Source of the DNA: Candidatus Omnitrophota bacterium
Lineage (GTDB): Bacteria > Omnitrophota > Gorgyraeia > 2-01-FULL-45-10
Assembly (NCBI GenBank): GCA_030695905.1
Contig: JAUYOL010000028.1
Location: 1 to 39,134 of the forward strand
DNA length: 39,134 nucleotides
Direction: 5' to 3'
Positions within the stretch are counted from its first letter, which is position 1. Each line of letters starts with the position of its first letter. Positions 5,932-21,801 of the stretch are shown here, piece after piece. Position numbers and translations under genes: made by a program. The notes beneath the pieces were generated by a model. The model was not told where the DNA came from and searched no databases. It saw only the letters and a program-made list of their open reading frames with translations.

Positions 5932-6314
5932 ACCAACGGGAAAAATTGATTTCTTTTTTTCAGCTCTTTTGTCACCTTATCGTAAAGTTCCACTAGCGAG
6001 CTGCCCTTCGTTATGTATTCGTCAATACCTCTACTCTGACATGCCTCAAATACCTGATCGCTATCCCATCCTGTAAAGACTATCTTATACATGGGCATGT
6101 CCTTAGCAATGTCTAGTACCTCGATACCGCTTTTTTTAGGCATCCTTATATCAAGAATCATCATATCGCAGGGATTATTCTTTATATATTCTATCGCGTC
6201 TTCGCCATTTATGGCCGATGGGAAATTGCCCTTTATCCGCAATTCAAGATAATTTTTGATATTATCTAACTGATCCCGTTCGTCATCTACTATCAATATC
6301 GTGGGAATACTCAC
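5928..6314 (-). CDS. Single-domain response regulator (CheY-like)
   Basis: A 128-residue stand-alone receiver domain. The acidic triad D10-D11-E12, the phospho-acceptor D55 in ILDIRMP, T81 and K103 are all present, so it should accept phosphate from a histidine. There is no output domain. It is the last gene of the synthase-phosphorelay operon, and its start overlaps the preceding receiver gene by four bases. Single-domain receivers act as phosphate shuttles or bind partner proteins; here the partners are presumably the H-box protein and kinases encoded upstream (inference). Confidence 0.9.
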   Translation of the reverse strand: MSIPTILIVDDERDQLDNIKNYLELRIKGNFPSAINGEDAIEYIKNNPCDMMILDIRMPKKSGIEVLDIAKDMPMYKIVFTGWDSDQVFEACQSRGIDEYITKGSSLVELYDKVTKELKKRNQFFPLV

Positions 6315-6691
6315 TTTGTCTCCTCCTCGTATATTTCATTTATCAGCTTGTGCGCCGCTTTGAGAACATCATCAAAGTTATAGGGTTTAATTATATAAGC
6401 TGAAGCCCCTAAATCCATACAGGTTTGACGAGTCTTATCATCTTCCACCGCGGTAAGCATGATAACACGTATTTTTGGGTTTATTTTTTTGGCCTGTCTC
6501 AGAACATCTATCCCTGTCATGCCTTCCATAATAATATCTAATACAATGATATTGGGCTTTTCTTTTTTAATGAGCGCAATGGCTTCGGGACCACTAGTGG
6601 CGGCCATAGCATGATAGCCTCGCTGTATTAGGAATTCTTTTATTTGATGCGATACTCCTGTTTCATCATCTACAACTAAGAATTTTATCAT
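6311..6691 (-). CDS. Single-domain response regulator (CheY-like)
   Basis: A 126-residue stand-alone receiver with D8/D9, phospho-acceptor D52 (VLDIIMEGMTG), T80 and K102, so fully competent for phosphorylation. No DNA-binding or enzymatic output follows. It overlaps the next receiver gene by four bases (coupled translation) and starts 12 bases after the stop of the degenerate-ATPase gene. The two tandem receivers are clearly different in sequence (IIMEGMTG versus IRMPKKSG around the acceptor), so they are unlikely to be simple duplicates and may receive different inputs. Confidence 0.9.
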   Translation of the reverse strand: MIKFLVVDDETGVSHQIKEFLIQRGYHAMAATSGPEAIALIKKEKPNIIVLDIIMEGMTGIDVLRQAKKINPKIRVIMLTAVEDDKTRQTCMDLGASAYIIKPYNFDDVLKAAHKLINEIYEEETK

Positions 6692-6703
6692 AACTTTTAC
6701 CTC

Positions 6704-7336
6704 TCAATCATTTGAAGGCAGCATAACTGTTATTCTAGTGCCAAAAGAAGGTGCGGCTTTATAATAGAATTTGCCTCCCATACGCTCTAATATCTTTCTT
6801 ATACCTTGCTGTTTCTTTATTTTATCGGGTGGCAAGTCATCTAACTGGCGGCACACGGGATCCTTTATAATGATTATTTTCCAAAGCTTTCTTAAAGTAA
6901 AAGATATCATAACTTTTGGATTATTAAAACCTAAGTATGTGAGAAGCTCCGTCCATTTTTCGATAGCATCTCCGTGAAGATAGCCTTCAACGGCGATCTT
7001 GTTTATTATCCTGAGTCCGGAAATCAATGCGCCCCAGTCTTCAAGTTCTGATTCCAAAGCTGCATCTTGTCGTGCCTCGAAACTAGGTAAAAATGTCTGG
7101 CGTTCTTTCATTTCATACATTAATGCCTTCCCTTTGTTAAAATACTTTTCGGTTTCTTCTAGACACTTCAAGCGGGCAACGGGATCGGAAAGTCCTCGAA
7201 GAGCCATGAGGTTTTTTCCCATTTCCTGCTTTGATTTTTCTATCTCACGAGAAAGCCTTTCAGCGATAAAAATTTCCTTGAAAAGTTGAAATAATCCTAT
7301 CCGTTTTTTCTTGTTATTAAGTAATGGGCTTACCAT
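6704..7336 (-). CDS. Orphan, degenerate histidine-kinase ATPase-like protein
   Basis: A 210-residue protein. The last 30 residues match the end of a histidine-kinase ATPase domain: the pattern GI-x-KILERMGGKF followed by SFGTRITVMLP corresponds to the lid end and G2 box. The N-box asparagines and the DxGxG G1 motif expected before it are not recognisable, and no clear H-box is seen. The N-terminal half is helical and charged, perhaps a dimerisation or adaptor region. It may be a pseudo-kinase or an ATPase half that pairs with the stand-alone H-box protein two genes upstream; both ideas are inference. It starts four bases after the ACP stop, so it is co-transcribed with it. Confidence 0.6.
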   Translation of the reverse strand: MVSPLLNNKKKRIGLFQLFKEIFIAERLSREIEKSKQEMGKNLMALRGLSDPVARLKCLEETEKYFNKGKALMYEMKERQTFLPSFEARQDAALESELEDWGALISGLRIINKIAVEGYLHGDAIEKWTELLTYLGFNNPKVMISFTLRKLWKIIIIKDPVCRQLDDLPPDKIKKQQGIRKILERMGGKFYYKAAPSFGTRITVMLPSND

Positions 7337-7340
7337 AATC

Positions 7341-7604
7341 CTATACTATACTCCCGTATCCCTTGCCCTCTTGTATCAATTTCTTGTTTATATAGTCTAT
7401 AACGTCTTTTACTGTCTTCGCTTTTTCTGCATCCTCATCAGGAATTTCAATGCCGAACTGTTCCTCTAATTCCATTACAAGCTCGACCGTATCAAGAGAA
7501 TCGGCTCCGAGGTCTTCTACAAACCTAGCGTCATCCTTTACTTCTTCCTCTCTTACACCCAATTGTTCCGCTATAATTTTAACCGCTCTATCTTTTATAT
7601 CCAT
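7341..7604 (-). CDS. acpP: Acyl carrier protein (AcpP-like)
   Basis: An 87-residue acyl carrier protein. The phosphopantetheine site is S36 in the canonical [14 protein letters not shown] context, and the acidic helix II and IPDEDAEK segment are typical of housekeeping AcpP. The frame extends to a GTG at 7610, but the AAGG ribosome-binding site is correctly spaced only for the ATG at 7604. Its position is odd: it lies between the stand-alone H-box protein and the degenerate ATPase, not beside the ketosynthases, yet in the same minus-strand unit. It could be the genome's general AcpP or a carrier dedicated to this cluster; the sequence looks like the general type, unlike the more divergent ACP at 13291. 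Confidence 0.93.
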
Positions 7605-7611
7605 GAGCACC

Positions 7612-8070
7612 TTAATACTTACCTAAAGCAGTAAGCTTGTCTTTGCACAAATTCATCGCCTTTACCATATATTGGCATATCGGTTGAAATTTCTTCACCT
7701 CTTCGCCGAATTGCAATAAGTTTTCTTTCTTGTCATATTTTAAAAGATAGTTGTACGATATCTCGCAAGTTTCCTCGGCTTCCTTTAAGCCTTTTAATCC
7801 ATGATTGATACACTCCTGCAATGTATCAGCAATATCCTTGCTTTCTATTTTATCTAACGCAGCTGCTACTAATTTGAGCTGCTCGGCGATTTTCTCTCTA
7901 CAAGAAAAGATGTCCTTATAAGCATTGGTCAAATTTTCTTTGAGATTGCCTTCCAGTCTTTCCATATTGAATGTGGTAATATATGAAATGCATATTTGAG
8001 ACATCGTATTTATCGTACCTGTAGGGCCCGATAGATCATGAAATAGCTTGTGGAGAGGCTCATTTATCAT
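7612..8070 (-). CDS. Stand-alone histidine phosphotransfer/DHp-like protein
   Basis: A 152-residue, almost fully alpha-helical protein. It opens with an H-box-like motif, [12 protein letters not shown], with His11 followed by Asp12 and a conserved-type Pro16, as in the dimerisation and phospho-acceptor helix of histidine kinases. Long helices follow, but no ATPase domain, so it resembles a DHp-only phosphotransferase in the manner of Spo0B or ChpT. It lies directly after a receiver gene (12-base gap) and before the acpP-like gene. The likely role is relaying phosphate between the receivers of this operon; the motif is seen, the role is inferred. A phosphatase or scaffold role is the alternative. 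Confidence 0.65.
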
Positions 8071-8082
8071 CTTTATATACTC

Positions 8083-8460
8083 TTATTTTATATTCTTCGC
8101 CAATTCTTGTAATGTATCACTAAGTTTGTCAAAGTCTATTGGCTTACCCAAGAACATAAAGGGGTTATATTGGTCGCATACTTTTACAATACTATCGTCC
8201 TTGCCATAGCCCGTTGCCACGATGACTTTTATATCTGGATATTTTTGGCTTGTTTGTTTTAATACCTCAATACCTGTTATAGGTGAATCTTCTAGCTGCA
8301 AATCACATAATACTACATGAGGTCTTTCCTTTTCGATTATTCTAAGGGCTTCATCGCCCTTTGGTGTAGCAAAAACTTTGTAGTCCATCAGTTCGTATAT
8401 ATCTTTTAGGCTATTTAACAGGATTATATCATCCTCAAGGATTAGTAGCTTTAGAGCCAT
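8083..8460 (-). CDS. Single-domain response regulator, coupled to the histidine kinase
   Basis: A 125-residue receiver with D10/D11, phospho-acceptor D53 (VLCDLQLED), T83 and K106 (FLGKP). The loop after D53 has a small insertion (LEDSPITGIEVL) compared with typical receivers. No output domain. The gene begins 26 bases inside the end of the histidine-kinase gene, which implies tight translational coupling and suggests this is the first phosphate acceptor for that kinase. The next gene downstream encodes the H-box protein, giving the gene order kinase, receiver, H-box protein, as expected of a phosphorelay. Confidence 0.92.
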   Translation of the reverse strand: MALKLLILEDDIILLNSLKDIYELMDYKVFATPKGDEALRIIEKERPHVVLCDLQLEDSPITGIEVLKQTSQKYPDIKVIVATGYGKDDSIVKVCDQYNPFMFLGKPIDFDKLSDTLQELAKNIK

Positions 8461-10585
8461 TAAAGCCCTCCTGTTCTTTTGGAAGTTCTACTGTAAAGGT
8501 AGTGCCTTTGCCGTATTCTGAAGAAAACGAAATCTTGCCCTTATGTTGTTCTATCCAGTCCTTCATAGAATATAAACCTGCTCCGTCGCCCTTACGCTCC
8601 GCTGACTTTGTGGTAAAGTACCCTGCAAAGAGCTTTTCTTTTACATCATCCTTCATGCCTATGCCATTATCTTCGATGGTTATAGCAATATTTCCGCCTT
8701 TGTCTTTAGCTGTAATGGTTATCTTACCTCTGTATGTGCCATCCGGTTTTAAATAAGAGTCTCTCCACATTATGGCATCGAATGCGTTATTTATTAAGTT
8801 TTCAAGGATCTGCTCTACCAAGCTTTCATTCCCTATTATGTGAGGGAGGTTTTCTGAGACGCCGTTGGTTATAACAGGTGCTGAGATATTTCGCTCCAAG
8901 ACGTCTTTTGATTTTGTGCGAGAGGACTGTTCTAACGCTTGTTTTACGATTGCGTAAACATTCAATTCGGCGAAATCTTCCTTGACCTTCGCGGGATAAA
9001 GGATAGCATCGAGCATACGCTTACCTTTTTCTGCTTCCTTTAATATCCCCTGCATACTATCCTTTGTTACGTTTAGTAAAGACTGTGCTTTTTCAAGAGT
9101 TACCTCTTTCGACTCCGTAACCTTTATAGCGGTAGATACGAATTTAGCACTGGCGGCGAGTCTCGCTAATATGTTTTTCATCTGATGAGCCGCTCCAACA
9201 GAAGTTTTATCAATACCTTTCTTCTCACTTTTTTCCGCTATCTCCTTGGTAAGTTGGGCATTCTTTATGGCAATCGCTTCTGTGCGCGCCAAGTCCATGA
9301 GCATAGTTAACTCTCCTTGAGTATAATACTCATCTGATTTTTTCTTACCCAAAAGGATAATACCTATAAGTTCATCGCGAATTAATAACGGCACCGCTAA
9401 ACTAGCCTTAAGGCTAAGCATTTCGTTTTTTATTTCTTCGCTTATTTTTTTGTCATTTTCATCCTCAATGGATAAAATATCTTTTATTGACTTCAAGCAT
9501 TCTGAGATCGGTGAGTCCTTTCCAATAACCCGGACTGCGCTTTCATCCTTAGCACCGTGCGATATATATCTGTCATTGTTTAATAGAAGAATATCTGAAT
9601 ATTTAGGATGAAGTTTCTCTAATAAATCTATGGTTCTAGTAACAATTTCGTCGATATCCAACACCGTAGCGACATCATCTATGAAAGGTTTTATTATTTG
9701 GCTATAAAAGTCATACTTTTTTTGAAAAAGGTATTTATTGGTAATGGCAATTAAAAAATTTTCTATTGGCCTATACGCAAGAATTATAATCAAACAACTT
9801 ATAGCGGCCCCTAAAAGTCTGCCTCCCATAATAACCTGCTGTATCAAAAATGTTATTCCAACAAATATGCCGAAGATTATTGTAAGTAAAGTTGCAAAAA
9901 CAACCGTCTTTTTAATTACAACATCTACATCCATGAGGTGATGTCTTAAAATTGCGTAAGTTGCTATGAGGCAATAGATAGGAATGGTAATATTACCAAA
10001 AGGGTAAATAGGGATTTTAAACATAAGGATAAGCGTTGAGGCTCCGCCTACAAATCCAGTAAGAAATCCAAAAATTATATAAAGAGTCTGAATGCGTTTA
10101 GCACCTTTTGTTTTTGGGAAAAATCTTAATAACTCAAAGAAGCTAACGCATACTATAAACAACCATGAAAAAACAAGGCTGGCATAAAGCCAAGTAGCAT
10201 CGTTATAATAAGGGATGCCATAAACAAAACGTGTTTTTGCAAATAGCAAATTTGTAAAAAAACAAAAATAGAGAAAAAACATGCTCCATATATACACAGC
10301 AATAAGTTGTATTCTTCGTTGCAGACCACAAAAAATACATACCAAATGATAAAAGAAGGTAGCGATAAATATTCCACCGGATTGACCAAACCTCCATCCG
10401 AACAGCGCCATTGGCTCACTAGCTGCCCTACTAACCCAAAAACAACCATAACCCCATATAGCCACTGAAATGTTAAAAAAAGCTAGTATGCGATGAATCT
10501 TCGCTCTGCCAAATATCAGTGTAACAAGAGCTAAAATTGTGCAAAAAACACCGCAAGCAATGCTTGTTACTGCAAATAAATTCAT
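8435..10585 (-). CDS. Sensor histidine kinase with 7TM N-terminus and GAF domain
   Basis: A 716-residue membrane sensor kinase. Residues 1-250 hold seven or more hydrophobic segments in the style of the 7TM sensor of histidine kinases, including the characteristic YAILRHHLMDVDVVIKKT boundary near 210-227. A GAF-like domain spans about 300-445. The phospho-acceptor His467 lies in GAAHQMKNILARL, followed by a complete ATPase: N-box about 596-600 (NLINNAFDA), G1 at D639 (EDNGIGM), the GDGAGLYSM lid region and a G2 box (GKGTTFTVELP). All catalytic parts are intact. Its start overlaps the stop of the CrtI-like gene by four bases and its end overlaps the receiver gene, so sensing and synthesis genes share one transcript. 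The signal is unknown; a lipid or the pathway product is a reasonable inference. Confidence 0.93.
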   Translation of the reverse strand: MNLFAVTSIACGVFCTILALVTLIFGRAKIHRILAFFNISVAIWGYGCFWVSRAASEPMALFGWRFGQSGGIFIATFFYHLVCIFCGLQRRIQLIAVYIWSMFFLYFCFFTNLLFAKTRFVYGIPYYNDATWLYASLVFSWLFIVCVSFFELLRFFPKTKGAKRIQTLYIIFGFLTGFVGGASTLILMFKIPIYPFGNITIPIYCLIATYAILRHHLMDVDVVIKKTVVFATLLTIIFGIFVGITFLIQQVIMGGRLLGAAISCLIIILAYRPIENFLIAITNKYLFQKKYDFYSQIIKPFIDDVATVLDIDEIVTRTIDLLEKLHPKYSDILLLNNDRYISHGAKDESAVRVIGKDSPISECLKSIKDILSIEDENDKKISEEIKNEMLSLKASLAVPLLIRDELIGIILLGKKKSDEYYTQGELTMLMDLARTEAIAIKNAQLTKEIAEKSEKKGIDKTSVGAAHQMKNILARLAASAKFVSTAIKVTESKEVTLEKAQSLLNVTKDSMQGILKEAEKGKRMLDAILYPAKVKEDFAELNVYAIVKQALEQSSRTKSKDVLERNISAPVITNGVSENLPHIIGNESLVEQILENLINNAFDAIMWRDSYLKPDGTYRGKITITAKDKGGNIAITIEDNGIGMKDDVKEKLFAGYFTTKSAERKGDGAGLYSMKDWIEQHKGKISFSSEYGKGTTFTVELPKEQEGFNGSKATNP

Positions 10586-11997
10586 AGGCTCTTCTTTTCT
10601 CTTCTTGTAATAATCTGTGCTGTGTCACGCCCCAAATATACAACTCCTGGTATGCCTTGTGCTAAGGTAGTCCAGTGTCCTGTCAAATATAAATTCTTTA
10701 TGGGTGTTGTCTGAGATAGGCCAGGAACGGCAAATTGGGTAGGCAAACTCTCCCAACCATAAGAAGCTCCTTCGTGATTTAATGTCCATTTATACAATGT
10801 ATATGGCGTTGCAGCATCGCTTAATACAATATGCTTCGATAAATCAGGTGTTATAAATTCAAGTCTCTTAATAAAACTTTTTATTAGTTTATGCTTTTCA
10901 GTTCTCCAGTATCCTATATCTTTAAATGACGAATTAATGAACATCGTAATGCTTTTTTGATCTGGCATAACACGCATCATGAGCCACGTAGAGTTATTTA
11001 TCATACCTTTTTTAGCCCTATCATACATATCCTCTATATCGTAATTGGGCAGTAACCACATATTAACACCGGGTTTAGGCAAAGAATTTAATTTCCCATC
11101 TATTCCCAAGTATAAAATAAACATGGATAAGGAATGACTGAGTAAGCTAAGCTTATTTATTATTTCCTTACCGATTATTTCCTCTCCAATCAAATTTTGG
11201 AAAGTTAGAAGGGAATCGCAATTTGAAATTACATATTTTGAAGTTATAAAATCTTTATCCCATACTTCTACTCCTTCTACTTTCTTATCTTTCAGCTTTA
11301 CTCTAGTAACTAGGCTAGACAGAGATAGGTCACCTCCATACTCTTTAAATCTCTTGGATAGAATGTCAGAGAATGCTTGCATGCCACCTTCTGGATAATA
11401 ACCACCATCTATAATGAATTCCTTATAAAACTTGGCAGCCGTAAATGCTGAAATTAAAGATGCTGGCAATCCTAAATTTCCTAAAATAAGCACAGAGAAA
11501 AACGCCTTCAATTTTATATCATTAAAATATTCGTCTAATAGATCTTTTAATGTTCTATTTCTCAGTTGTGCACTCGCTAACCCTTTAGAATTGTCTAAAT
11601 AAGTTAAAAAGGTTTTTATATTTTTGCTTTCTTTTGGAAAAGCATTCCCTAACTCGTTAATCGTTTTATCAAGTTTATTCCAAAAAGAAATGTTATGATC
11701 CGGCGATATAATAATGTCCTGCGGATCATGTCTATGTATTTTGATTCTTGACTCTATATCTAACCCTTTAATAACCTGCCTAATGATACCGTCGTTGCGT
11801 AAGCTACCTAGAGAATGAGCACACGCATCGAAATAAAATCCATTGCGCGAAAATGAGGTACAATAGCCACCGGGCTTGACATTCTTTTCAACAATCAACG
11901 TCTTCAGTCCAGCTTTCGCCAAATAACATCCGCATACAAGCCCACTAATACCTGCACCAATAATTATTGCATCATAATCATATTTATGGGATGACAT
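10582..11997 (-). CDS. FAD-dependent oxidoreductase, phytoene desaturase/CrtI-like
   Basis: A 471-residue flavoprotein. The N-terminus carries the dinucleotide-binding fold AIIIGAGISGLVCGCYLAK with the downstream Glu (VEK) and the PGGY motif of the CrtI/retinol-saturase/amine-oxidase superfamily. The C-terminus has the second FAD contact, NLYLTGHWTTLAQGIPGV. Such enzymes desaturate, saturate or isomerise long polyenes and related hydrophobic substrates. No phytoene synthase is present nearby, and the gene is embedded between a ketosynthase and a histidine kinase, so a substrate made by the adjacent acyl synthase is more likely than a carotenoid (inference). The frame extends upstream to a TTG at 12000, but the ATG at 11997 shares one base with the preceding TGA (TGATG), the typical coupled arrangement. 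Confidence 0.85.
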   Translation of the reverse strand: MSSHKYDYDAIIIGAGISGLVCGCYLAKAGLKTLIVEKNVKPGGYCTSFSRNGFYFDACAHSLGSLRNDGIIRQVIKGLDIESRIKIHRHDPQDIIISPDHNISFWNKLDKTINELGNAFPKESKNIKTFLTYLDNSKGLASAQLRNRTLKDLLDEYFNDIKLKAFFSVLILGNLGLPASLISAFTAAKFYKEFIIDGGYYPEGGMQAFSDILSKRFKEYGGDLSLSSLVTRVKLKDKKVEGVEVWDKDFITSKYVISNCDSLLTFQNLIGEEIIGKEIINKLSLLSHSLSMFILYLGIDGKLNSLPKPGVNMWLLPNYDIEDMYDRAKKGMINNSTWLMMRVMPDQKSITMFINSSFKDIGYWRTEKHKLIKSFIKRLEFITPDLSKHIVLSDAATPYTLYKWTLNHEGASYGWESLPTQFAVPGLSQTTPIKNLYLTGHWTTLAQGIPGVVYLGRDTAQIITRREKKSL

Positions 11998-13298
11998 CAA
12001 TCAAGTCTCCTAAATATCGCCGCCGCATTATAACCAGCAAATGCCGCACATATTTTCATAACCATTTTTAATTTTTTATCAATCTTTTCTCTCACCAAAC
12101 TTATATTATATGCCGGATTCGTATTGTCAGAATTTAAAGTAGGTATAATCGTTTCATTTTTTAGCGAAAGCAACAGGATTGCTGTTTCTAGCAAAGCACT
12201 CCCACCTAAATTATGGCCTACATACGGCTTGAAGGCTGTAATAAGAGGTTTATTCGATTTTACCCCAAAAGTATCCGTAATTGCTTTAGACTCATAATAA
12301 TCTATAACATGCGACCCTATGCCATGTGGACAAAGAAGATCTATTTCTTTTTTATCAACGCCGCTTTGTTTAAAGGCTTTTGATATGGCTCGCTGATATG
12401 AGTCGCTACCAACCTTAGGGACTGTTACCTGCCATCCCTCAAGAGAAAAACCGCCACCTAAATATTCAGCATATATTGGGGCGTTTCTTTTCTTTGCGTG
12501 CTCCAATTCTTCTACGACGATGGCAATTCCCCCATCTCCAAACGCCAAACCTTTACTATCTTTTGAGAATGGTTTCATAACACCATCCTTAGAATAAATA
12601 CCTAAGTCTCTAAACCAAATATATTTATATATATCCGGATAGTCTGAAGCCGCAACTATAACGGTAGAATTTTGACCATTCTTTATCATTTCACTCGCTG
12701 TTTCAATACCATATAAACCAGAAGCGCAGGCGTTACATATAAATAATGAATGCTGCCGCACGTTAAAAACTTTGGCTATGTGAAAAAGAGTCATAAAGGG
12801 CTGAACATCATAACCACTTCTTATACAATCCTTATAAAGCTTGTCATAGAATTCTTTCTTTGACAAGTCTTTCGACTTATCTTTTAGTATATTAAAAGCG
12901 CGGTCACTTACTTTAGACAGAAATGGTATTAATCCCATATTTTCATGAGTCAAGACAAGCCCAAAATCATTTTCTTCATATGGTTTATAGTCTAAGCCGC
13001 TATCGTCAAGTGCTAACTTTATCGCAGCAATCATATAATATAGATCTACGATCTCATCGCCCTCTTTCCAATCCTTAACCCAGTCTAATAACTCCTTATT
13101 AATTCCGAATTTAGTTATATCAAAGCCATCAACTTTATGAAAATAATACTTATCCCATAACTCTCCGTCGATACGAGATTCTTCCAGCTTTATATTAGTC
13201 CTGCCCTCAAGCAAACTTCCCCACAAAGCTTCCTTGCCAATACCTATAGAAGTTATGGGGCCTATACCAGTTATAACAATTCTTTTATCTTTAGCCAT
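11997..13298 (-). CDS. Beta-ketoacyl synthase, divergent FabF-like, catalytic triad intact
   Basis: A 433-residue ketosynthase of the FabB/FabF thiolase fold. The catalytic set is complete: nucleophile C191 (CNACASG), H325 in PHGIGS and H362 in YVGHNLGG. It differs from housekeeping FabF in a long insertion around residues 130-165 and in HGIGSHVIDYYE replacing the usual HGTGT-x-x-ND-x-x-E, suggesting an unusual acyl chain or partner. Its start overlaps the end of the ACP gene by eight bases and its end touches the oxidoreductase start, so these three act from one mRNA and probably on one ACP-bound intermediate. Proposed role: one or more decarboxylating Claisen condensations in a specialised lipid or polyketide pathway. 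Confidence 0.88.
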   Translation of the reverse strand: MAKDKRIVITGIGPITSIGIGKEALWGSLLEGRTNIKLEESRIDGELWDKYYFHKVDGFDITKFGINKELLDWVKDWKEGDEIVDLYYMIAAIKLALDDSGLDYKPYEENDFGLVLTHENMGLIPFLSKVSDRAFNILKDKSKDLSKKEFYDKLYKDCIRSGYDVQPFMTLFHIAKVFNVRQHSLFICNACASGLYGIETASEMIKNGQNSTVIVAASDYPDIYKYIWFRDLGIYSKDGVMKPFSKDSKGLAFGDGGIAIVVEELEHAKKRNAPIYAEYLGGGFSLEGWQVTVPKVGSDSYQRAISKAFKQSGVDKKEIDLLCPHGIGSHVIDYYESKAITDTFGVKSNKPLITAFKPYVGHNLGGSALLETAILLLSLKNETIIPTLNSDNTNPAYNISLVREKIDKKLKMVMKICAAFAGYNAAAIFRRLD

Positions 13299-13542
13299 TT
13301 TTTCTCGCTATCAATTCCCTAAGGAAGCTAACGGCATCTTTTACTGTTCTAAGTTTACCCAATTCACTGTCTTTGACTGCAACTTTGTATGTTCTCTCAA
13401 TTTCTGTGGCTATCTCTATTATCTTTAGGGAATCTATACCCAAATCATCGACTACGTTAGCGGTGTCACTTATTTCTCCAACATCCAAGCCTGTCAATCG
13501 GGAAAGGATCAGTTTAACTTCCTGTTCTAAACTATCAGGCAT
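13291..13542 (-). CDS. Acyl carrier protein, cluster-specific
   Basis: An 83-residue acyl carrier protein with the phosphopantetheine site S38 in DLGIDSLKIIEIATEIE. It is more basic and more divergent than the acpP-like carrier at 7341, as is usual for carriers dedicated to secondary pathways. It lies between two ketosynthases, 19 bases after one and overlapping the next by eight bases. This placement marks it as the probable carrier for the chain assembled by the three ketosynthases, the ketoreductase and the dehydratase of the operon. Confidence 0.92.
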   Translation of the reverse strand: MPDSLEQEVKLILSRLTGLDVGEISDTANVVDDLGIDSLKIIEIATEIERTYKVAVKDSELGKLRTVKDAVSFLRELIARKNG

Positions 13543-13561: not shown

Positions 13562-14770
13562 TTAGTTTTGAAACTTTTTAATTACAAGACAAGCATTGTT
13601 ACCGCCGAAAGCAAAGCCATTATTTAGGGCTATATTAATGGTCTGTTTTCTAGAAACATTAGGAACACAATCAATATCGCATTCCGGATCAGGCGTTTCA
13701 TAATTTATTGTTGGAGGCATTATGTTATTTTCAACTACAAGGCAACAAGTGATAGCTTCAATAGCTGATGCCGCTCCCATAGTATGACCTAACATAGATT
13801 TAATTGAGCTTACTGGTATTTTCTTATCGCCAAAGATTTGCTTTATGGCTGCGCATTCCGCCCTATCGTTAAATATGGTTCCTGTCCCATGCGCGCTGAT
13901 ATAATCTATATCATTTGGAGTTAAGCCTGCGTCTTTAAGGGCATTCTTCATACAAGACGCAAGCCCTTCTGCTTGAGGATTAGTCATGTGATGCGCATCA
14001 CAGCTTAATCCATATCCTAAGATTTCTGCGTATATATGGGCATTTCTCTTTTTCGCCTGGTCTAAAGTCTCTAAAACTACAATACCTGATCCTTCGCCCG
14101 GAATAATACCTTTTCTATTCTTGTCAAAAGGCTGGCATTTCTCAGGCGCTGTGGCACTTACCTTATTAAACCCTGTAAACGCGATCCAAGAAAATGAATC
14201 AGAGCCTCCTGCCACTATTATATCCGACTCATTAAACTGTAATAAATCGTATCCGTAACCAATGGCATAATTACCTGCGGCACAGGCGGTGGTAAAGATA
14301 CGGTTTCGTCCTTTTAGCTTAAACTCCATCGCGACAGATGAAGGTATATTATTTAAGGGAGACTGATAAAGAGCTAAATTGCCTACTTCTTTTTGACCCG
14401 ATTTAATCCAAGTATGGTCGGCTTTCTCAACAGATTGTATCTCACCCATAGTGGTGCCTAAGCAGACGCTTGTCTTATAGTTAGATATAGATCCATCTGA
14501 TAGCTGAGCGTCTTCTAATGCTAATTTTGTCGCACTCATCGCCAGTTGTGATGCCCTGCCGATTAACCTTATTCTCTTTTTGGAGATAAAATCTTCCGGA
14601 TTGAAGTTCTTTATTTCTCCGCCTTTATGCGTGACGTGTTTAGATGTGTCATAAGACGCTACCTCGCTGATACCGGATTTTCCCTTTAGCAAATTATCCC
14701 AAAAGGCGTTCTTGCCAATACCTATAGAGCTAATAACGCCTAACCCAGTAACTACGACTCTTTTCTTCAC
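13562..14770 (-). CDS. fabF: Beta-ketoacyl-ACP synthase II-like (FabF family), catalytic triad intact
   Basis: A 402-residue ketosynthase of typical FabF length. The residues required for decarboxylating condensation are present: C163 in TTACAAGNYAIGY, H294 in SAHGTGT and H329 in SMLGHTMGAAS, together with the C-terminal glycine-rich NNGFAFGGNNA loop. It is the most canonical of the three ketosynthases and probably the main elongation enzyme, pairing with the histidine-less ketosynthase encoded two genes upstream in a KS-alpha/KS-beta manner (inference). Its start overlaps the fabZ stop by four bases. Whether it also serves general fatty-acid synthesis cannot be told from this window, because fabD, fabH and fabI are not here. 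Confidence 0.92.
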   Translation of the reverse strand: MKKRVVVTGLGVISSIGIGKNAFWDNLLKGKSGISEVASYDTSKHVTHKGGEIKNFNPEDFISKKRIRLIGRASQLAMSATKLALEDAQLSDGSISNYKTSVCLGTTMGEIQSVEKADHTWIKSGQKEVGNLALYQSPLNNIPSSVAMEFKLKGRNRIFTTACAAGNYAIGYGYDLLQFNESDIIVAGGSDSFSWIAFTGFNKVSATAPEKCQPFDKNRKGIIPGEGSGIVVLETLDQAKKRNAHIYAEILGYGLSCDAHHMTNPQAEGLASCMKNALKDAGLTPNDIDYISAHGTGTIFNDRAECAAIKQIFGDKKIPVSSIKSMLGHTMGAASAIEAITCCLVVENNIMPPTINYETPDPECDIDCVPNVSRKQTINIALNNGFAFGGNNACLVIKKFQN

Positions 14771-15204
14771 ACTTTTCTCCTGACAAACACGAATTCACCT
14801 GTAGAAATAGTCTCATCTTTTACGGTTGCTTTTACCTTTGCATAAACATTATCTTCCGTAACTCTAACCGCCTCAGATATTATCTTTAGCTCATCCCCAG
14901 GTAAAACTGTTTTGAAGAATCTGGTATCTTTTACGACACCTAAATAGAAGTTTAGCTTTTGCTCTTTTTTTTCAGGCTTGTAGACCAAAAATGTTGATGC
15001 TTGTGCCATAGCTTCAATAATTGATGTTCCTGGCATAATTGGCTCATCAGGAAAGTGCCCTTCAAAAAATGGTTCGTTAATGCTCACGTTTTTAATGGCA
15101 ACCACACGTTTTCCCGGCTCCAAATCTATGATTTTATCAATCAAGAGAATAGGATACCTCTGCGGTATAAGGTTCTTTATCTGATTAATATCAAGGGTTA
15201 TCAT
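14767..15204 (-). CDS. fabZ: 3-hydroxyacyl-ACP dehydratase (FabZ-like hot-dog fold)
   Basis: A 145-residue hot-dog-fold dehydratase. The catalytic pair is visible: H50 in [14 protein letters not shown] and E64 in SIIEAMAQ. The length and N-terminal [13 protein letters not shown] segment match FabZ. It removes water from 3-hydroxyacyl-ACP to give trans-2-enoyl-ACP. No enoyl reductase is encoded in the operon, so repeated cycles of ketosynthase, ketoreductase and dehydratase without reduction could leave conjugated double bonds, as in aryl-polyene pathways. That reading is an inference and would fail if a reductase encoded elsewhere acts on the same intermediates. The gene sits between two ketosynthases with a 2-base gap and a 4-base overlap. 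Confidence 0.92.
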
Positions 15205-15206
15205 GA

Positions 15207-16454
15207 CTATCCTTTATGCTTTCCAATAATCAAAACGCTATTAGCGCCATTAGGTCCGAAGGAATTTATCATTACTTTGCCAAGGTTTTGTTTTCTTGCC
15301 TTATTGGGAACATAATCTAAGTCACACATTGGGTCTTTCTCTTCAAGATTAACCGTAGGCGGTATGAAATCTTTTGATATACTGCCCAAAGCAGCAGCTA
15401 CAGCCATGGCACCCGAAGAACTAAACGATTCACCTATCATAGATTTTATTGCTGTAATTGGTATTTTTAATGCTTTGTCTCCAAAGACTTCTTTTATAGC
15501 TTTTGTCTCAACAGCATCAGCATCTTGTGTGGAATTAGCATTAGCAAACACACAGTCTATATCATCGGACTTTAAGCTCGCGTTGGTTAAGGCTAATTTT
15601 ATTGCTTCAACGATACCTGTTCCTTTAGGATTAAACTTATCTAAACGAAATGGATCAAAGTTAGAACCAACACCTAATACTTCAGCGTAAATATTAGCCT
15701 TGCGTTCTTCGGCCTTTTTCAAATCTTCTAAGATAAATACGGCTGATCCTTCTGAAAAAATAATACCATCCCTCCTCTTATCGAACGGGCATGATAATGG
15801 TTCTTTATCGTTATTTAAACCTGACAGATACCCTAATCTATAGAATCCGAAGAACGTCTGAAAACACATCTCCTCAACCGCTCCAACTATTACTCTATCG
15901 GCTCTATTAGCGTTTATACAATGAATGGCATAGTCTAATGCGTCTATAGAGGCGCAAAATCCTGTGGAAATAGTAGCGTTAGGGCCTTTAACGCCGTAAC
16001 GAATAGCAACGCGACTCGCAGGTGAATTAACCACGGTATTTGGAAATCTTGACGCATTTACAAAATTAGGCCCCTCTTCCAAAGACTGCCTGTCAAATTG
16101 AGACAAGCTGTTTAGGCTACCAAAGGTAGTGCCTATAGATATGCCTGTTACAGGAGAATTGATATTCGATAAATCTATTTGACTATCTTCTAAGGCAAAT
16201 TTAGTAGCGGATGATAGAAGAGTTGTTGACCTATCCAGATCTATAAGCCCCTTCTTGCCTAAGATATCTACTGGATTAAACCCTGCAATCTCGCCACCTA
16301 TCTTGACCTTTAAATCAGATGTATCGAATAACGTGATCGGTTTAAAACCAGTTTTGCCTTCTGATAGGCTCTGCCAATATTGATCCTTGCCAATACCTAT
16401 GGGAGAAATTACGCCTAATCCTGTTATAACAACTCTCTTCTTGTATGAAGTCAA
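15207..16454 (-). CDS. Ketosynthase-like protein lacking both catalytic histidines (chain-length-factor-like)
   Basis: A FabF-family protein of about 415 residues. The nucleophile position is kept as Cys (TGFCASIDALDYA), but the first catalytic His is Asn (FANANSTQDAD in place of SAHGTGT) and the second is Glu (SMIGESFSSSGA in place of GH). A decarboxylating condensing enzyme needs both histidines, so this is probably a non-elongating partner comparable to the chain-length factor (KS-beta) of type II polyketide synthases. It could also be an acyl-transfer enzyme that uses only the Cys. The frame extends to 16490, overlapping fabG, but a strong GGGAAGG ribosome-binding site points to the TTG at 16454, which gives the usual SYKKRVVITGLG beginning. 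Confidence 0.85.
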   Translation of the reverse strand: MTSYKKRVVITGLGVISPIGIGKDQYWQSLSEGKTGFKPITLFDTSDLKVKIGGEIAGFNPVDILGKKGLIDLDRSTTLLSSATKFALEDSQIDLSNINSPVTGISIGTTFGSLNSLSQFDRQSLEEGPNFVNASRFPNTVVNSPASRVAIRYGVKGPNATISTGFCASIDALDYAIHCINANRADRVIVGAVEEMCFQTFFGFYRLGYLSGLNNDKEPLSCPFDKRRDGIIFSEGSAVFILEDLKKAEERKANIYAEVLGVGSNFDPFRLDKFNPKGTGIVEAIKLALTNASLKSDDIDCVFANANSTQDADAVETKAIKEVFGDKALKIPITAIKSMIGESFSSSGAMAVAAALGSISKDFIPPTVNLEEKDPMCDLDYVPNKARKQNLGKVMINSFGPNGANSVLIIGKHKG

Positions 16455-16467
16455 AATTGCCTTCCCT

Positions 16468-17205
16468 TTATATTGCAAAACCGCCATCAACCTTTATAAC
16501 TTGACCTGTAATATAAGCAGACTGATCGCTTGCTAAAAATGTTACTACTTTAGCAATTTCCTCAGGTTTCCCGAAACGGCCAAAAGGTATCATTTTAATA
16601 AACTGCTCTTTTTGTTTAAGATCCTTTGTCATGTCAGTATCGATGAAACCAGGTGCGATAGCATTTACTCTAATACCAAAAGAAGCTACTTCTTTCGCTA
16701 GGGATTTTGTAAGCCCTATTTCGCCTGCTTTAGCGCTTGAGTAATTTACCTGTCGAGGAATTCCTATTACACCAGATACGGATGATATATTTACTATGTT
16801 TCCGCTCTTCTGTTTCATCATAGATCCTATACATGCCTTTGCCATATTGAAATAGCCGGTCAAGTTTGTGTTTATAACATCAAGCCATTCTGATGGTTCC
16901 ATAAATACAAGCGCCTTGTCTTTGGTGATCCCTGCGTTATTAACCAAGATATCAATCTTGCCGAATTTGGTCAGCGTCTCTTCAAGTACATTTTTTGCCT
17001 CATCAAATACTCTGACATCGGTTTTTATTGCTTCGGCTTCACCTTTGAGCTCTTTTATTTCGTCTAAAATTATACCGGCGGATTCGTCACTTTTGAGGTA
17101 TGTAAATACAACTTTGGCGCCATGTTGAATTAACTCAAAGACTATTGCTCTGCCAATACCTCGGGTCCCACCCGTAACTATTGCTATTCTATCCTTTAAT
17201 AACAT
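16468..17205 (-). CDS. fabG: 3-oxoacyl-ACP reductase (FabG-like short-chain dehydrogenase)
   Basis: A 245-residue short-chain dehydrogenase. It has the cofactor loop TGGTRGIG (11-18), the NNAG motif, N114, and the catalytic S142, Y155 and K159 (YSSAK), all in FabG spacing. It would use NADPH to reduce 3-oxoacyl-ACP to 3-hydroxyacyl-ACP. It is the first biosynthetic gene of the operon, nine bases after the response-regulator gene and 13 bases before the favoured start of the histidine-less ketosynthase. A housekeeping role is possible but not needed by the context. Confidence 0.93.
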   Translation of the reverse strand: MLLKDRIAIVTGGTRGIGRAIVFELIQHGAKVVFTYLKSDESAGIILDEIKELKGEAEAIKTDVRVFDEAKNVLEETLTKFGKIDILVNNAGITKDKALVFMEPSEWLDVINTNLTGYFNMAKACIGSMMKQKSGNIVNISSVSGVIGIPRQVNYSSAKAGEIGLTKSLAKEVASFGIRVNAIAPGFIDTDMTKDLKQKEQFIKMIPFGRFGKPEEIAKVVTFLASDQSAYITGQVIKVDGGFAI

Positions 17206-17214
17206 ATATATTTG

Positions 17215-18087
17215 CTATCCTTTTACCAGCCTCTGCTCTACACATATATTATTGATAAAGCTTATGAGCTTTTGGTTCATTTCAATTAGCTGCTCATGGT
17301 TCATTACATTCTGTATGCATCTTTTCACATTCTTCTGCTGTAGCCGCGTTTCAAACATGCCACCGCGCTCAAATAAACTATGAATTACAATTTCATCGGG
17401 TTGTATTTTAATGCCTCTGATCAAATCTATCATGTTTAGAATATCGCCTTCGCTCATCGCATAATCATTTATCAACACAATGTTCGGCTGGTACTCACAT
17501 AACTCGTGCAATATAATCCCCGACAGACTATCTATGCCACAATATATTACTTTTTTCTCGTATTCTCCCGGGCAAAAATCAGGATTGTTAAACAACCCCG
17601 AAGTGAAAGCATACATTTCAATGCTTGGTTCTATGAATAACAATTTTGCTTTAGGAGTTTGTTTACTTATGGACTGCGCTTTTTCTTTAGTCGGATATAC
17701 CCTTGTATCTTGCTTAATTTTATCTATAACGTAGCGAATCCTACCTATTAACTGGGCAACATCTATAGGTTTCGCAAAAAACCCGTCTATGCCTATCTTT
17801 TCAATTTCGCCCTTCACCTCTTCATCGTAGGCGGTCATTATAATTACTTTGGTCTTGGGTTTATCTTTTCGTACGTGCTTTAATATCTGGATACCATCTA
17901 CACCTGGCATTCGCACATCAAGAAGTATGAGGTCAAGGGTTACGGAATCGATGATTTTAAGCGCTTCATTACCATCAAGCGCGGTAAGCATGTCGTAGCC
18001 TAAAGTCGTAAAAAAACCTTGAAGGCCCATCGTTATCTTTTTGTCATCATCTACTACTAATATAACGCCTTTTCCATTATTGTTCAT
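17215..18087 (-). CDS. Response regulator with an uncharacterised second domain
   Basis: A 290-residue protein. Residues 5-125 are an intact receiver (D13-D15, acceptor D57 in LLDVRMPG, KP near 108). After a linker rich in Lys and Gln, residues about 145-265 again alternate strands and helices (AKLLFIEPSIEMYAF, VIYCGIDSLSG, NIVLINDYAM, DEIVIHSLFER) like a second receiver that has lost its acidic pocket. No DNA-binding helix-turn-helix was recognised. It is the second gene of the synthase operon, 27 bases after the small HTH gene and nine bases before fabG. It may sense kinase output and pass it on by protein contacts. Confidence 0.85.
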   Translation of the reverse strand: MNNNGKGVILVVDDDKKITMGLQGFFTTLGYDMLTALDGNEALKIIDSVTLDLILLDVRMPGVDGIQILKHVRKDKPKTKVIIMTAYDEEVKGEIEKIGIDGFFAKPIDVAQLIGRIRYVIDKIKQDTRVYPTKEKAQSISKQTPKAKLLFIEPSIEMYAFTSGLFNNPDFCPGEYEKKVIYCGIDSLSGIILHELCEYQPNIVLINDYAMSEGDILNMIDLIRGIKIQPDEIVIHSLFERGGMFETRLQQKNVKRCIQNVMNHEQLIEMNQKLISFINNICVEQRLVKG

Positions 18088-18711: not shown

Positions 18712-19173
18712 ATGATCGCAAAAAAGAAGCAGGCAGTATCGATAGCAGAAGTAAAAAAAGAGGCTGGCTTATACCTAGAAATGCAGGCGGTGATTGGAGA
18801 TCCCGATGCAAAATATCTAGGCATAGCCAAGGGCGGAGGCAAGTGGTTCAAGAACTACAAGACAGGAACCTTATATCGTACTGATAAAGGCGAGAATGGA
18901 TATGAGGTTAAAGAAACCCGTAAACCAAAGGAGGGCGCGGTGAAAGCAACTAATAAAAAGGTTAAAATTAGCGGTCCAACTCGGCAGGAGCTTATGGAAG
19001 AGGCCAAGGCTAAGAAGATCGCCAACTTCAGAGTTATGAATAAGGTAGAGCTTGCTGAAGCCGTAAAGCCAAGTACAGCAAAGGGTCGAATCGAAGAGAT
19101 CCAAGAGGCCGCAGTAAAACGCTGGAAATCCGGATGGAAATTCCAGGATAAGAAGAAAACAGAGAAACAATAG
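18712..19173 (+). CDS. Basic protein with Rho-N/SAP-like C-terminal motif, 153 aa
   Basis: A 153-residue, very basic protein with a strong GAAAGGAGG ribosome-binding site. Residues about 30-65 contain a Gly-rich, aromatic stretch (AKGGGKWFKNYKTGTLYR). Residues about 92-121 resemble a Rho-N/SAP-type helix-extended-helix (PTRQELMEEAKAKKI, then RVMNKVELAEAVK), a fold that binds nucleic acid. The C-terminus is Lys-rich. It is the last gene before a rho-independent terminator and belongs to the recombinase cassette by position and orientation. A DNA-binding accessory function is an inference; no full-length family was recognised. Confidence 0.65.
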   Translation: MIAKKKQAVSIAEVKKEAGLYLEMQAVIGDPDAKYLGIAKGGGKWFKNYKTGTLYRTDKGENGYEVKETRKPKEGAVKATNKKVKISGPTRQELMEEAKAKKIANFRVMNKVELAEAVKPSTAKGRIEEIQEAAVKRWKSGWKFQDKKKTEKQ

Positions 19174-19183
19174 GCAACACAGA

Positions 19184-19215
19184 AAGAGCGCCTTTGGTTA
19201 GGGGCGCTCTTCTTT
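19184..19215 (+). terminator. Rho-independent terminator
   Basis: A perfect 9-bp stem (AAGAGCGCC and GGCGCTCTT) with a 10-base loop, followed by CTTT, lies 10 bases after the stop of the Rho-N-like gene. It separates the two-gene cargo unit from the recombinase unit. Confidence 0.85.
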
Positions 19216-19251
19216 AGGCAGTTATTTAATGCTTAATAAATCTGCCGATAC

Positions 19252-19300
19252 CGCCTTGACTTGTGCCGAATAGTATGGCCTATATGACATGAGGCTAGAG
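19252..19300 (+). repeat. 49-bp promoter/leader repeat, copy 2
   Basis: Second copy of the block at 18462-18510, four mismatches, all in the -35 to -10 spacer. It includes TTGACT at 19256-19261 and the identical 3' half. It precedes the DUF2924-like gene, whose GAGAGGAGG ribosome-binding site starts at the end of the block. The two transcription units of the cassette should therefore respond to the same factor. The pair could also recombine and delete the cargo genes between. Confidence 0.75.
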
Positions 19301-19316
19301 AGGAGGTTTTTCAGCG

Positions 19317-19784
19317 ATGAAAGAGGGCATTTTAGCGAGAATACTGGCTCTTAAAACAGCGTCCTTGTCTGAATTACAAAAGGAATATGAGGCCATATTT
19401 GATGGTAAAAAGGCGCCGTCTAATAATAAGACATATCTATGGCAGAAGATTGCCTATCGAATGCAAGAGCTTGGATATGGCAGTCTTCCGGAAGAAGCGC
19501 GAGACAAAGCCAAGGAACTGGCTCAAGAATATGATCCTATTAATAATAAGGCACTGCGACCGAATGGTATTAATAATGGCACGGATAAGCGATGTATTTC
19601 GCGTGATAGGCGGCTTCCTATGCCGGGTACTCTTATTACCAAAAATTATAAAGGCGTCGAAATCCGAGTCAAAATACTCGAAAAAGGCTTTGAATATAAC
19701 GGCAAAACTTATAAGACGCTTACTGCGATAGCTAAAGAAATAACCGGATCACATTGGAACGGATACTTGTTTTTCAATTTATAG
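19317..19784 (+). CDS. DUF2924-like protein of the recombinase cassette
   Basis: A 155-residue protein. The N-terminal half is helical (LARILALKTASLSELQKEYE, then TYLWQKIAYRMQELGYG). The C-terminal half has the signature of DUF2924: PGTLITKNYKGVEIRVKILE, then FEYNGKTYKTLTAIAKEITGSHWNGYLFF. DUF2924 proteins are found directly upstream of large serine recombinases in phage-like and integrative elements; their role is unproven but they are thought to be recombination or DNA-binding accessories. Here the recombinase starts seven bases after this stop, which fits that pairing. Its own promoter repeat and ribosome-binding site are strong. Confidence 0.85.
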   Translation: MKEGILARILALKTASLSELQKEYEAIFDGKKAPSNNKTYLWQKIAYRMQELGYGSLPEEARDKAKELAQEYDPINNKALRPNGINNGTDKRCISRDRRLPMPGTLITKNYKGVEIRVKILEKGFEYNGKTYKTLTAIAKEITGSHWNGYLFFNL

Positions 19785-19791
19785 GTGGGTT

Positions 19792-21393
19792 ATGAAAACG
19801 GACATCGCTAAAAAGAGATTGTACTGCGCGATTTACACTCGAAAATCAACTAGCGAGGGTTTAGAGCGAGACTTTACATCTTTGGATAACCAGCGCGAGT
19901 CCTCTGAGAGTTATATTAACAGCCAAAAGAGCGAAGGATGGATACTCTTACCGGATCGATATGATGATGGCGGTTATACGGGTGCCAACACCGAAAGGCC
20001 TGCCTTGCAGAAGCTCATTGCCGACATAAAAGAAGGCAGAATTAACTGCATTGTAGTCTATAAAGTCGATAGATTATCAAGGTCATTGCTTGACTTCGTT
20101 AAACTCTTGGAGCTTTTCGAGAAATATAACGTCGTCTTTGTCTCCGTAACTCAGGCCTTTAACACCAACAATTCTATGGGAAGACTTACATTGAACATTC
20201 TGCTGTCTTTCGCCCAATTTGAGCGCGAAATTATCAGTGAACGCGTCAAAGACAAAATGGGCGCTGCCCGCAAGAAAGGCAAATGGCTTGGCGGAAGGAC
20301 TATATTGGGCTACGATCTCGATAAAGTTAACCATAAGCTTTTAATTAACGAGAAAGACGCAAAAATAGTCTGCGAAATATTCGATTTATACATTAGCGAA
20401 AAGTCTTTCCTATCGGTAGCGAAGATTTTGAATGAAAAAGGATATCTTACTAAGAGACACGCAACCAAATCCGGCGATCATGGCGGTATAAAATTCAAGA
20501 ATACGAATATCCATTTTATAGTGAAGAATGTTTTATATATCGGCAAAGTCAAATATAACGGTGAACTTTACAAAGGCACGCATGAAGCCATAATCTCGGA
20601 TGAAACGTTCAACAAAGCGCAGGAAATTATCGCTAATAATCGCGTAAGGCGCGATCATTCCGAGAATACGCATAATACTGGCCTCCTCAGCCGTATCTTG
20701 CGCTGTAAGGCCTGTAACGGCATTATGTTCCACACATATACCAGTAAGAAAAAAGACCGCAAATACCGCTATTATGTCTGCCTAAATGCCCACAAACGAG
20801 GCTACGGCAACTGTCCCACCAAGTCGGTGAATGCTCAGCACATTGAGAATGCCGTAATCGAATCTTTGATTAAAATAGCAGGGGATTCCGAGCTACGGAA
20901 AGGCGCTCTCGAGGAGGTAAACAAGCATATCCGGGAAGAGATCGAAGCCCATGACAAAAAAACGAAAGTATTAATCAAGGATGCGCGCAATCTGCATGAT
21001 AAGATCGACAATTTAAAAGAAACCCTGAAAACTCCGACCGAAAATAAGCGTGAATTGGAGCAGGAACTAAAGACTCTTACGGCTAAATACGGCGAATATG
21101 ACCGCTTATTGACCGAAGCTCGCTTGAAAGAGATGTCTTTAGGCCAAAAAATCATCACAGACCGTGAGCTTGAGCAGGCATTAATAGTAAATTCGCCCAT
21201 TTGGGAAACGTTCTTTCCCCAAGAAAAACACAAAGTGCTAAAACTCATGCTTAAAGAAGTTGATTATAGCGGTACGGACGCCAAAATTGGGCTTACGTTA
21301 AACCACGGCGGCCTTAAATTCTTATACCTGCTATTACATCCAGAGCTGCAAAAGGATCTGAAGCCCTTCGACAGGCTCAGGGCTTCATCCTGA
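19792..21393 (+). CDS. Large serine recombinase
   Basis: A 533-residue site-specific recombinase of the resolvase/invertase superfamily. The catalytic domain (about 8-150) has Y15-x-R17-x-S19 with S19 as nucleophile, the DDGGYTGANTERP loop and the VYKVDRLSRS motif. A Recombinase domain (about 165-275) is followed by a zinc ribbon (CKACNG, then C-x-N-x18 with GNCPT) and a long coiled coil (about 375-450) typical of integrase-type large serine recombinases. The last residues (FDRLRASS) are encoded by a dispersed palindromic repeat, so the C-terminus was probably altered by repeat insertion. The gene lies seven bases after the DUF2924-like gene. It probably drives integration and excision of this cassette. 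Confidence 0.95.
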   Translation: MKTDIAKKRLYCAIYTRKSTSEGLERDFTSLDNQRESSESYINSQKSEGWILLPDRYDDGGYTGANTERPALQKLIADIKEGRINCIVVYKVDRLSRSLLDFVKLLELFEKYNVVFVSVTQAFNTNNSMGRLTLNILLSFAQFEREIISERVKDKMGAARKKGKWLGGRTILGYDLDKVNHKLLINEKDAKIVCEIFDLYISEKSFLSVAKILNEKGYLTKRHATKSGDHGGIKFKNTNIHFIVKNVLYIGKVKYNGELYKGTHEAIISDETFNKAQEIIANNRVRRDHSENTHNTGLLSRILRCKACNGIMFHTYTSKKKDRKYRYYVCLNAHKRGYGNCPTKSVNAQHIENAVIESLIKIAGDSELRKGALEEVNKHIREEIEAHDKKTKVLIKDARNLHDKIDNLKETLKTPTENKRELEQELKTLTAKYGEYDRLLTEARLKEMSLGQKIITDRELEQALIVNSPIWETFFPQEKHKVLKLMLKEVDYSGTDAKIGLTLNHGGLKFLYLLLHPELQKDLKPFDRLRASS

Positions 21394-21406
21394 GCTAAGT
21401 CGAAGG
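21364..21406. repeat. Dispersed palindromic repeat overlapping the recombinase stop
   Basis: An imperfect 43-bp palindrome with arms CCTTCGACAGGCTCAGG and CCTGAGCTAAGTCGAAGG around a short centre. This matches a family of short palindromes that I recall being scattered through many bacterial genomes and often read as FDRLRA or LSLSKG in translated genes. Here it supplies the last residues and the stop codon of the recombinase gene. Confidence 0.8.
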
Positions 21407-21426
21407 ATGAAATAAGCGAGGATTTT

Positions 21427-21801
21427 ATGGGAACTGACCTGAAATTTGAATTTAAGGTAGATTTACAACCAGTTAGGCATGCCTCTCCAAGATGCCGCAT
21501 GGCTAAGATCTCACATGAGCCGAGGCTGCGCCAGTACTTGGTGCTGGCTTATCAAATACAAGAGATGCTTGATAGTGCTAACGCCTTAAGCGCGAAACAA
21601 ATATCGGAGTGGCTTCATATGACTCCGCCGAGAGTCAGCCAAATCCTGAATTTGCTGTTCTTGAGCCCTGCTATCCAAAAAGAAATCCTTCTGTCAAATG
21701 ATGAAAAAATCCGCAACTTAACCGAGCATAAAATACTCGCCATCACGAAAGAAATCGAATGGGAAAAGCAGCAAGTTATGTGGAACGACCTTCTAAAATA
21801 A
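21427..21801 (+). CDS. Helix-turn-helix protein of the recombinase cassette, 124 aa
   Basis: A 124-residue protein with a central helix-turn-helix: RLRQYLVLAYQIQEML, then AKQISEWLHMTPPRVSQIL and LLFLSPAIQKEIL, a pattern like KorB/ParB-type HTH domains. Genes of this kind commonly follow DUF2924 and serine recombinase genes, forming a three-gene module. It begins 33 bases after the recombinase stop, just beyond the palindromic repeat, and is closed by a strong terminator. A role as regulator or directionality factor of the recombinase is an inference. Confidence 0.75.
   Translation: MGTDLKFEFKVDLQPVRHASPRCRMAKISHEPRLRQYLVLAYQIQEMLDSANALSAKQISEWLHMTPPRVSQILNLLFLSPAIQKEILLSNDEKIRNLTEHKILAITKEIEWEKQQVMWNDLLK

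Follow-up and report, generated by a model that had tools for sequence, protein, structure and literature searches.

The window (the whole stretch of 39,134 nucleotides analysed, from an uncultured Omnitrophota bacterium) carries a run of biosynthetic and signalling genes in the order FabG, a non-catalytic ketosynthase (KS-beta), FabZ, a condensing ketosynthase (KS-alpha), acyl carrier protein (ACP), a third ketosynthase (KS3), a CrtI-like flavoenzyme, a sensor kinase, response regulators and a second ACP. Intergenic gaps or overlaps in the KS operon ranged from a few to about 26 nt and, given this tight spacing, the genes have the appearance of one operon. Its features are as follows.

17215-18087, minus strand: response-regulator receiver protein, upstream of FabG on the same strand
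16468-17205, minus strand: FabG-like ketoreductase, the operon's first biosynthetic gene (profile matches)
15207-16454, minus strand: KS-beta (P0001), non-catalytic ketosynthase of 415 aa, TTG start, frame open to 16490
14767-15204, minus strand: FabZ-like dehydratase between KS-beta and KS-alpha (profile matches)
13562-14770, minus strand: KS-alpha, condensing ketosynthase in which Cys-His-Lys-His is intact (the solved structure nearest to it is 9s5h_B, 529 bits)
13291-13542, minus strand: ACP (profile matches)
11997-13298, minus strand: KS3, very divergent ketosynthase with Cys-His-Lys-His (alignment and tree)
10582-12000, minus strand: CrtI/phytoene-desaturase-like FAD oxidoreductase (below the family cut-off)
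8435-10585, minus strand: sensor histidine kinase of the 7TM-GAF type with weak similarity to PrsK; its gene shares 4 nt with that of the flavoenzyme
5928-8460, minus strand: operon end, with response regulators (8083-8460, 6311-6691 and 5928-6314) and two proteins without a family assignment (7612-8070 and 6704-7336)
7341-7610, minus strand: second ACP, housekeeping AcpP type (profile match)

No enoyl reductase was found in the operon. KS3 formed a long branch in our tree (2.15) and at least 11 related loci carried it; it may load the starter or catalyse a second condensation. Just upstream of the operon, an opposite-strand block (18712-21801) encodes a DUF2924 protein and a large serine recombinase, and is probably a mobile element.

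The KS-beta ORF was intact and scored well above the cut-off for both PF00109 and PF02801 in a Pfam profile search. FabF (TIGR03150) was the closest named NCBIfam model, at 358 bits against a cut-off of 493.75, and the Cys-His-His triad of canonical FabF was also missing. An AlphaFold2 model of the single chain had the full KS fold (pLDDT 92.7, pTM 0.94), and a fold search returned KS structures with TM scores up to 0.96. The best 50 Foldseek matches of this model were generic FabF/KS proteins and did not include PDB 9s5h, whose release is possibly later than the library.

Five codons define the former active site of KS-beta, numbered against FabB/F.

15957-15959, minus strand: Phe166, at the catalytic Cys position (Cys163 of FabB/F; gap-free alignment)
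15954-15956, minus strand: Cys167, the nucleophile presumed by the preliminary description of this locus
15540-15542, minus strand: Asn305, at the first catalytic His position (His298; alignment and orthologs)
15444-15446, minus strand: Lys337, at the position of Lys328
15429-15431, minus strand: Glu342, at the second catalytic His position (His333)

The preliminary description had correctly noted that both catalytic His are replaced, with FANANST standing in place of SAHGTGT and GE in place of GH. It had also taken the Cys nucleophile loop to be intact, which was an error of one residue. In an alignment including FabF and type II KS-alpha sequences, STGFCASIDA of KS-beta lay over TTACAAGNYA of KS-alpha, gap-free on both sides, so that the nucleophile position is occupied by Phe166 and the Cys lies one residue downstream. 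To assess conservation we used 89 distinct ortholog sequences, 9s5h_C included, which separated cleanly in relatives (full-length matches of at least 434 bits; next paralogs <300). Position 166 was Phe in 81, Met in four, Val in two, Tyr in one and Cys in one, and position 167 was Cys in 45, Thr in 36, Ser in four and Ala in four. At position 305, Asn (40), Ser (23), Cys (11), Gly (7), Thr (4), Ala (3) and Asp (1) were observed, and position 342 was always acidic (Glu 82, Asp 7). The nucleophile was thus absent from 88/89 orthologs, and the first and second His from 89/89 each; no ortholog kept either His. Lys337 was invariant (89/89) and the position of the FabB gate residue, Phe392, was Pro in 84/89. 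Cys occupied the nucleophile position in a single ortholog (GCCAG), from a Nitrospirota locus (L101, 8998-10227), in which Ser and Glu still replace the two His. Cys-His-Lys-His was kept in all KS-alpha and KS3 examined, and the canonical status that the preliminary description gave to the ketosynthase at 13562 holds.

The residue set is therefore Phe-Asn-Glu, not the Cys-Asn-Glu previously described, as judged from the gap-free alignment and the 89 orthologs. A nucleophilic Cys in KS-beta was rejected on the alignment register and the missing conservation. The presence of Cys167 in the loop had allowed the alternative of a Cys-Asn-Glu enzyme with a retained nucleophile, acting in acyl transfer. 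We consider this very improbable, since Cys167 is one residue out of register in a motif that is gap-free on both sides and is replaced by Thr, Ser or Ala in 44/89 orthologs. The contrast drawn earlier with classical chain-length factors (CLFs), which usually lose the Cys, likewise falls away because KS-beta has lost it too. KS-beta is a real, conserved protein and a fully dead ketosynthase; it is of the fatty-acid type, from an uncultured Omnitrophota bacterium, and none of the three catalytic residues is left.

Conservation also extended to the surroundings of the invariant Lys. In condensing KSs, residues 328, 333 and 342 (FabB numbering) read K-H-E, except in the Iga11 type (K-H-A/G). In 87/89 KS-beta orthologs, an acid had moved to the second-His position and the FabB-numbered Glu342 was lost. 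The same acid shift was seen in Iga12 and other CLFs of its type, as R/M-D-Q. We interpret the acid at this position as pairing structurally with the Lys. Alternatively, KS-beta could be an independent non-condensing enzyme (e.g. an isomerase, a hydratase or an acyl-ACP-modifying enzyme) that uses the Lys, the acid and the former active-site pocket. Retention of Lys337 and of Glu or Asp at 342 in all 89 orthologs would fit such an enzyme, as would the occurrence of KS-beta without KS-alpha in some genomes. However, the acid substitutes for the lost Glu near the same Lys, consistent with a structural salt bridge; the residue at the first-His position is free to vary, unlike one in a catalytic site; and the nucleophile position is filled by a bulky Phe. 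We therefore hold an independent enzyme to be distinctly unlikely.

The relationships of KS-beta were inferred from a maximum-likelihood tree of 45 rows, in which the groups tested were picked after the tree had been seen. KS-beta and the Iga12-type CLFs formed one clade (support 97/99), and KS-alpha grouped with the Iga11-type KS and KS3 (94/99) at an open fork. Forcing KS-beta to group with FabF, without Iga12, was rejected (AU test, P = 0.0076), and with it a position inside FabF. A single clade of all CLFs was neither supported nor rejected (AU test, P = 0.30). The Iga12-type branch was long (2.16), making its exact place less certain, and a sister relationship between KS-beta and the Iga12-type CLFs is likely, though not certain. 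With FabF as its closest named NCBIfam model, albeit below the cut-off, KS-beta might be taken for an ordinary FabF paralog decaying at random. We give this next to no credence: the frames are open and the same substitutions recur in 89 distinct orthologs from several phyla, which is not the pattern of chance decay, and the FabF grouping failed the tree test. The 89 conserved orthologs likewise rule out a pseudogene.

We further investigated the occurrence of KS-beta, which was carried by 67/285 genomes of the Omnitrophota. Among the related loci, of which the best 80 of 277 were kept, 58 were from Omnitrophota, 17 from Nitrospirota and few from others. FabG, FabZ, ACP and KS-alpha were neighbours of KS-beta in Omnitrophota, Nitrospirota and a Myxococcota-assigned MAG. 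The cluster is also carried by Ca. Velamenicoccus archaeovorus (NZ_CP019384.1, locus L106). The loci fell into three layouts: the complete operon, a variant in Nitrospirota that includes a methyltransferase gene, and a riboflavin-locus form (about 17 cases) in which KS-beta occurs with FabG and FabZ only. In the last (L052, L054, L071, L087, L103, L115 and others), the KS-beta-FabG-FabZ block lies between RibE and the DNA ligase LigA, with no KS-alpha, ACP or flavoenzyme. The genome studied here harbours a second cluster on another contig (C29), comprising a KS-beta at 49% identity together with an acyl-ACP-reductase-like gene, FabG, ACP, KS-alpha, a flavoenzyme and a kinase. Acyl-ACP-reductase/PigE-like or thioester-reductase genes were observed in this and another sister cluster (L027, 10728-11840 on C29; L077, 2542-3645), suggesting release of the chain as an aldehyde or alcohol.

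Kinases and response regulators accompanied the KS operon both in the window (5928-10585 and 17215-18087) and at loci L051, L060 and L125. The same place in the operon was taken by PrsK-like 7TM-GAF kinases in Omnitrophota and by CckA/PAS-like kinases in Nitrospirota and the Myxococcota-assigned MAG. Two kinase types at one position suggest a functional link between the product and signalling.

Whilst KS-beta was co-inherited with KS-alpha in many genomes, no KS-alpha ortholog (a match of at least 400 bits to the ketosynthase at 13562) was detected in 8/15 KS-beta genomes checked, including the complete chromosome CP070780.1. These eight genomes and the roughly 17 riboflavin-locus cases count against a fixed pairing with KS-alpha. 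The lack in KS-alpha of the Asp113 of Iga11 (see below) and the long Iga12-type branch weigh against the reading of KS-beta as a chain-length partner set out below. The riboflavin-locus form, with FabG and FabZ only, means that the partner of KS-beta is not always KS-alpha; FabF may take that place where KS-alpha is lacking, or KS-beta may fulfil a separate function there. A broader reading would have KS-beta pair with any condensing KS, including the housekeeping FabF, as a regulatory or specificity subunit that diverts fatty acid synthesis to another chain, the KS-alpha pairing being one case. It draws on the conserved riboflavin-locus block and on the presence of FabF in the eight genomes without a KS-alpha ortholog, CP070780.1 having only two KS matches in total. 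Yet KS-alpha is adjacent in the window and in most other loci, and several assemblies without KS-alpha are drafts whose completeness is not stated. We regard this broader reading as unlikely, though less so than the other alternatives.

Taken together, KS-beta probably serves KS-alpha as a non-catalytic KS partner, shaping or measuring the chain that KS-alpha makes. Partnership with KS-alpha appears most likely from the residue losses and their conservation, the operon structure, co-inheritance, the phylogeny and the finding of both homologs in a single PDB entry. KS-alpha, with its Cys-His-His, would carry out decarboxylative condensation on ACP-bound chains, and KS-beta would form the other half of the dimer, helping to determine the form and depth of the acyl pocket and probably providing an ACP docking face. 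Each round would continue with FabG reduction and then FabZ dehydration, and the CrtI-like flavoenzyme would then alter double bonds. Without an enoyl reductase in the operon, the chain would be expected to keep its double bonds, giving a polyene. For this organism, we infer the heterodimer, the chain-length control and the polyene product. A non-condensing role had been proposed in several versions; chain-length-type partnership with the ketosynthase at 13562 is the best supported and that idea was likely right, and the acyl-transfer or Cys-Asn-Glu chemistry fell with the Phe at the nucleophile position and the unconserved Cys beside it.

The nearest known systems include the FASII ('ladderane') clusters of ladderane-making anammox bacteria. 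Kuste2805 was reported in 2009 to carry F163/N298/K328/E333 (Rattray 2009, PMC2649909, Table 2), exactly the Phe/Asn/Lys/Glu set of the window KS-beta, and Kuste3606 has Val/Asn/Lys/Glu at 163/298/328/333 (Rattray 2009, PMC2649909). A canonical FabF has the adjoining locus number in each case (2804 and 3605, respectively). The genes kuste3603-3607 encode ACP, FabZ, FabF, a non-canonical FabF and a phytoene desaturase (Javidpour 2016, PMC4790861), a set common to the window operon with its CrtI-like gene. In both its F/N/K/E residues and its canonical FabF-type, ACP, FabZ and phytoene-desaturase-like neighbours, KS-beta resembles the anammox-type non-canonical FabF. The window operon differs in its Omnitrophota host and in its extra FabG, third KS and sensor kinase; in addition, no radical SAM was seen among the Pfam matches of the operon genes scanned, which bears on membership of the ladderane clusters and not on the protein family of KS-beta. 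The operon thus appears, from its genes and residues, to be of the polyene type already known from anammox bacteria. To our knowledge, there is no report of ladderane lipids from Omnitrophota.

A homologous pair occurs in PDB 9s5h/9s5i (3-oxoacyl-ACP synthases), where chain C is a KS-beta homolog (V/N/K/E) and chain B a KS-alpha homolog, in equal chain counts. 9s5h_C was the best PDB match of KS-beta (365 bits), as 9s5h_B was of KS-alpha, and differs in having Val rather than Phe at the Cys position. V163, N298, Y300, G302, K328, E333, Q342 and R392 of 9s5h_C are all eight residues tabled for Kuste3606 (PMC2649909), and it is on this residue matching that the putative organism assignment of 9s5h rests.

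KS-beta also has the properties of a CLF, namely a KS fold without catalytic Cys or His and a condensing KS-alpha adjacent in the window and in many loci. The Iga11-Iga12 KS-CLF (PDB 6kxd/e/f), a highly reducing (polyene) type II PKS, similarly works with KR and DH without ER. Iga12 is shorter than KS-beta and very divergent, and Iga11 has Asp113, where the window KS-alpha has Met and 9s5h_B has Ala; an Iga11-type Asp113 release mechanism in KS-alpha was hence not supported. The classical aromatic type II CLF (actinorhodin type, PDB 1tqy_B) is likewise a KS fold without catalytic Cys or His; in the Streptomyces example tested, Gln takes the place of the Cys and Asp/Arg that of the two His.

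A conserved dead KS subunit thus replaces the supposed Cys-Asn-Glu enzyme, and the poorly understood 'non-canonical FabF' of ladderane type is tied to polyene PKS chain-length factors. Since the KS-beta gene is common in the Omnitrophota, a polyene or lipid so far uncharacterised may occur widely in this phylum and in the Nitrospirota. Tentatively, and with rather low expectation, one might go further: the anammox non-canonical FabF and the CLF of actinobacterial polyene type II PKSs would be one lineage, ladderane precursors would come from a KS-CLF polyene synthase, and in many Omnitrophota KS-beta without KS-alpha would redirect the housekeeping FabF. antiSMASH 'ladderane' clusters were reported earlier in Omnitrophota MAGs from the Cariaco Basin (PMC9902471). 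Both the residue pattern and the cluster type have thus been described previously.
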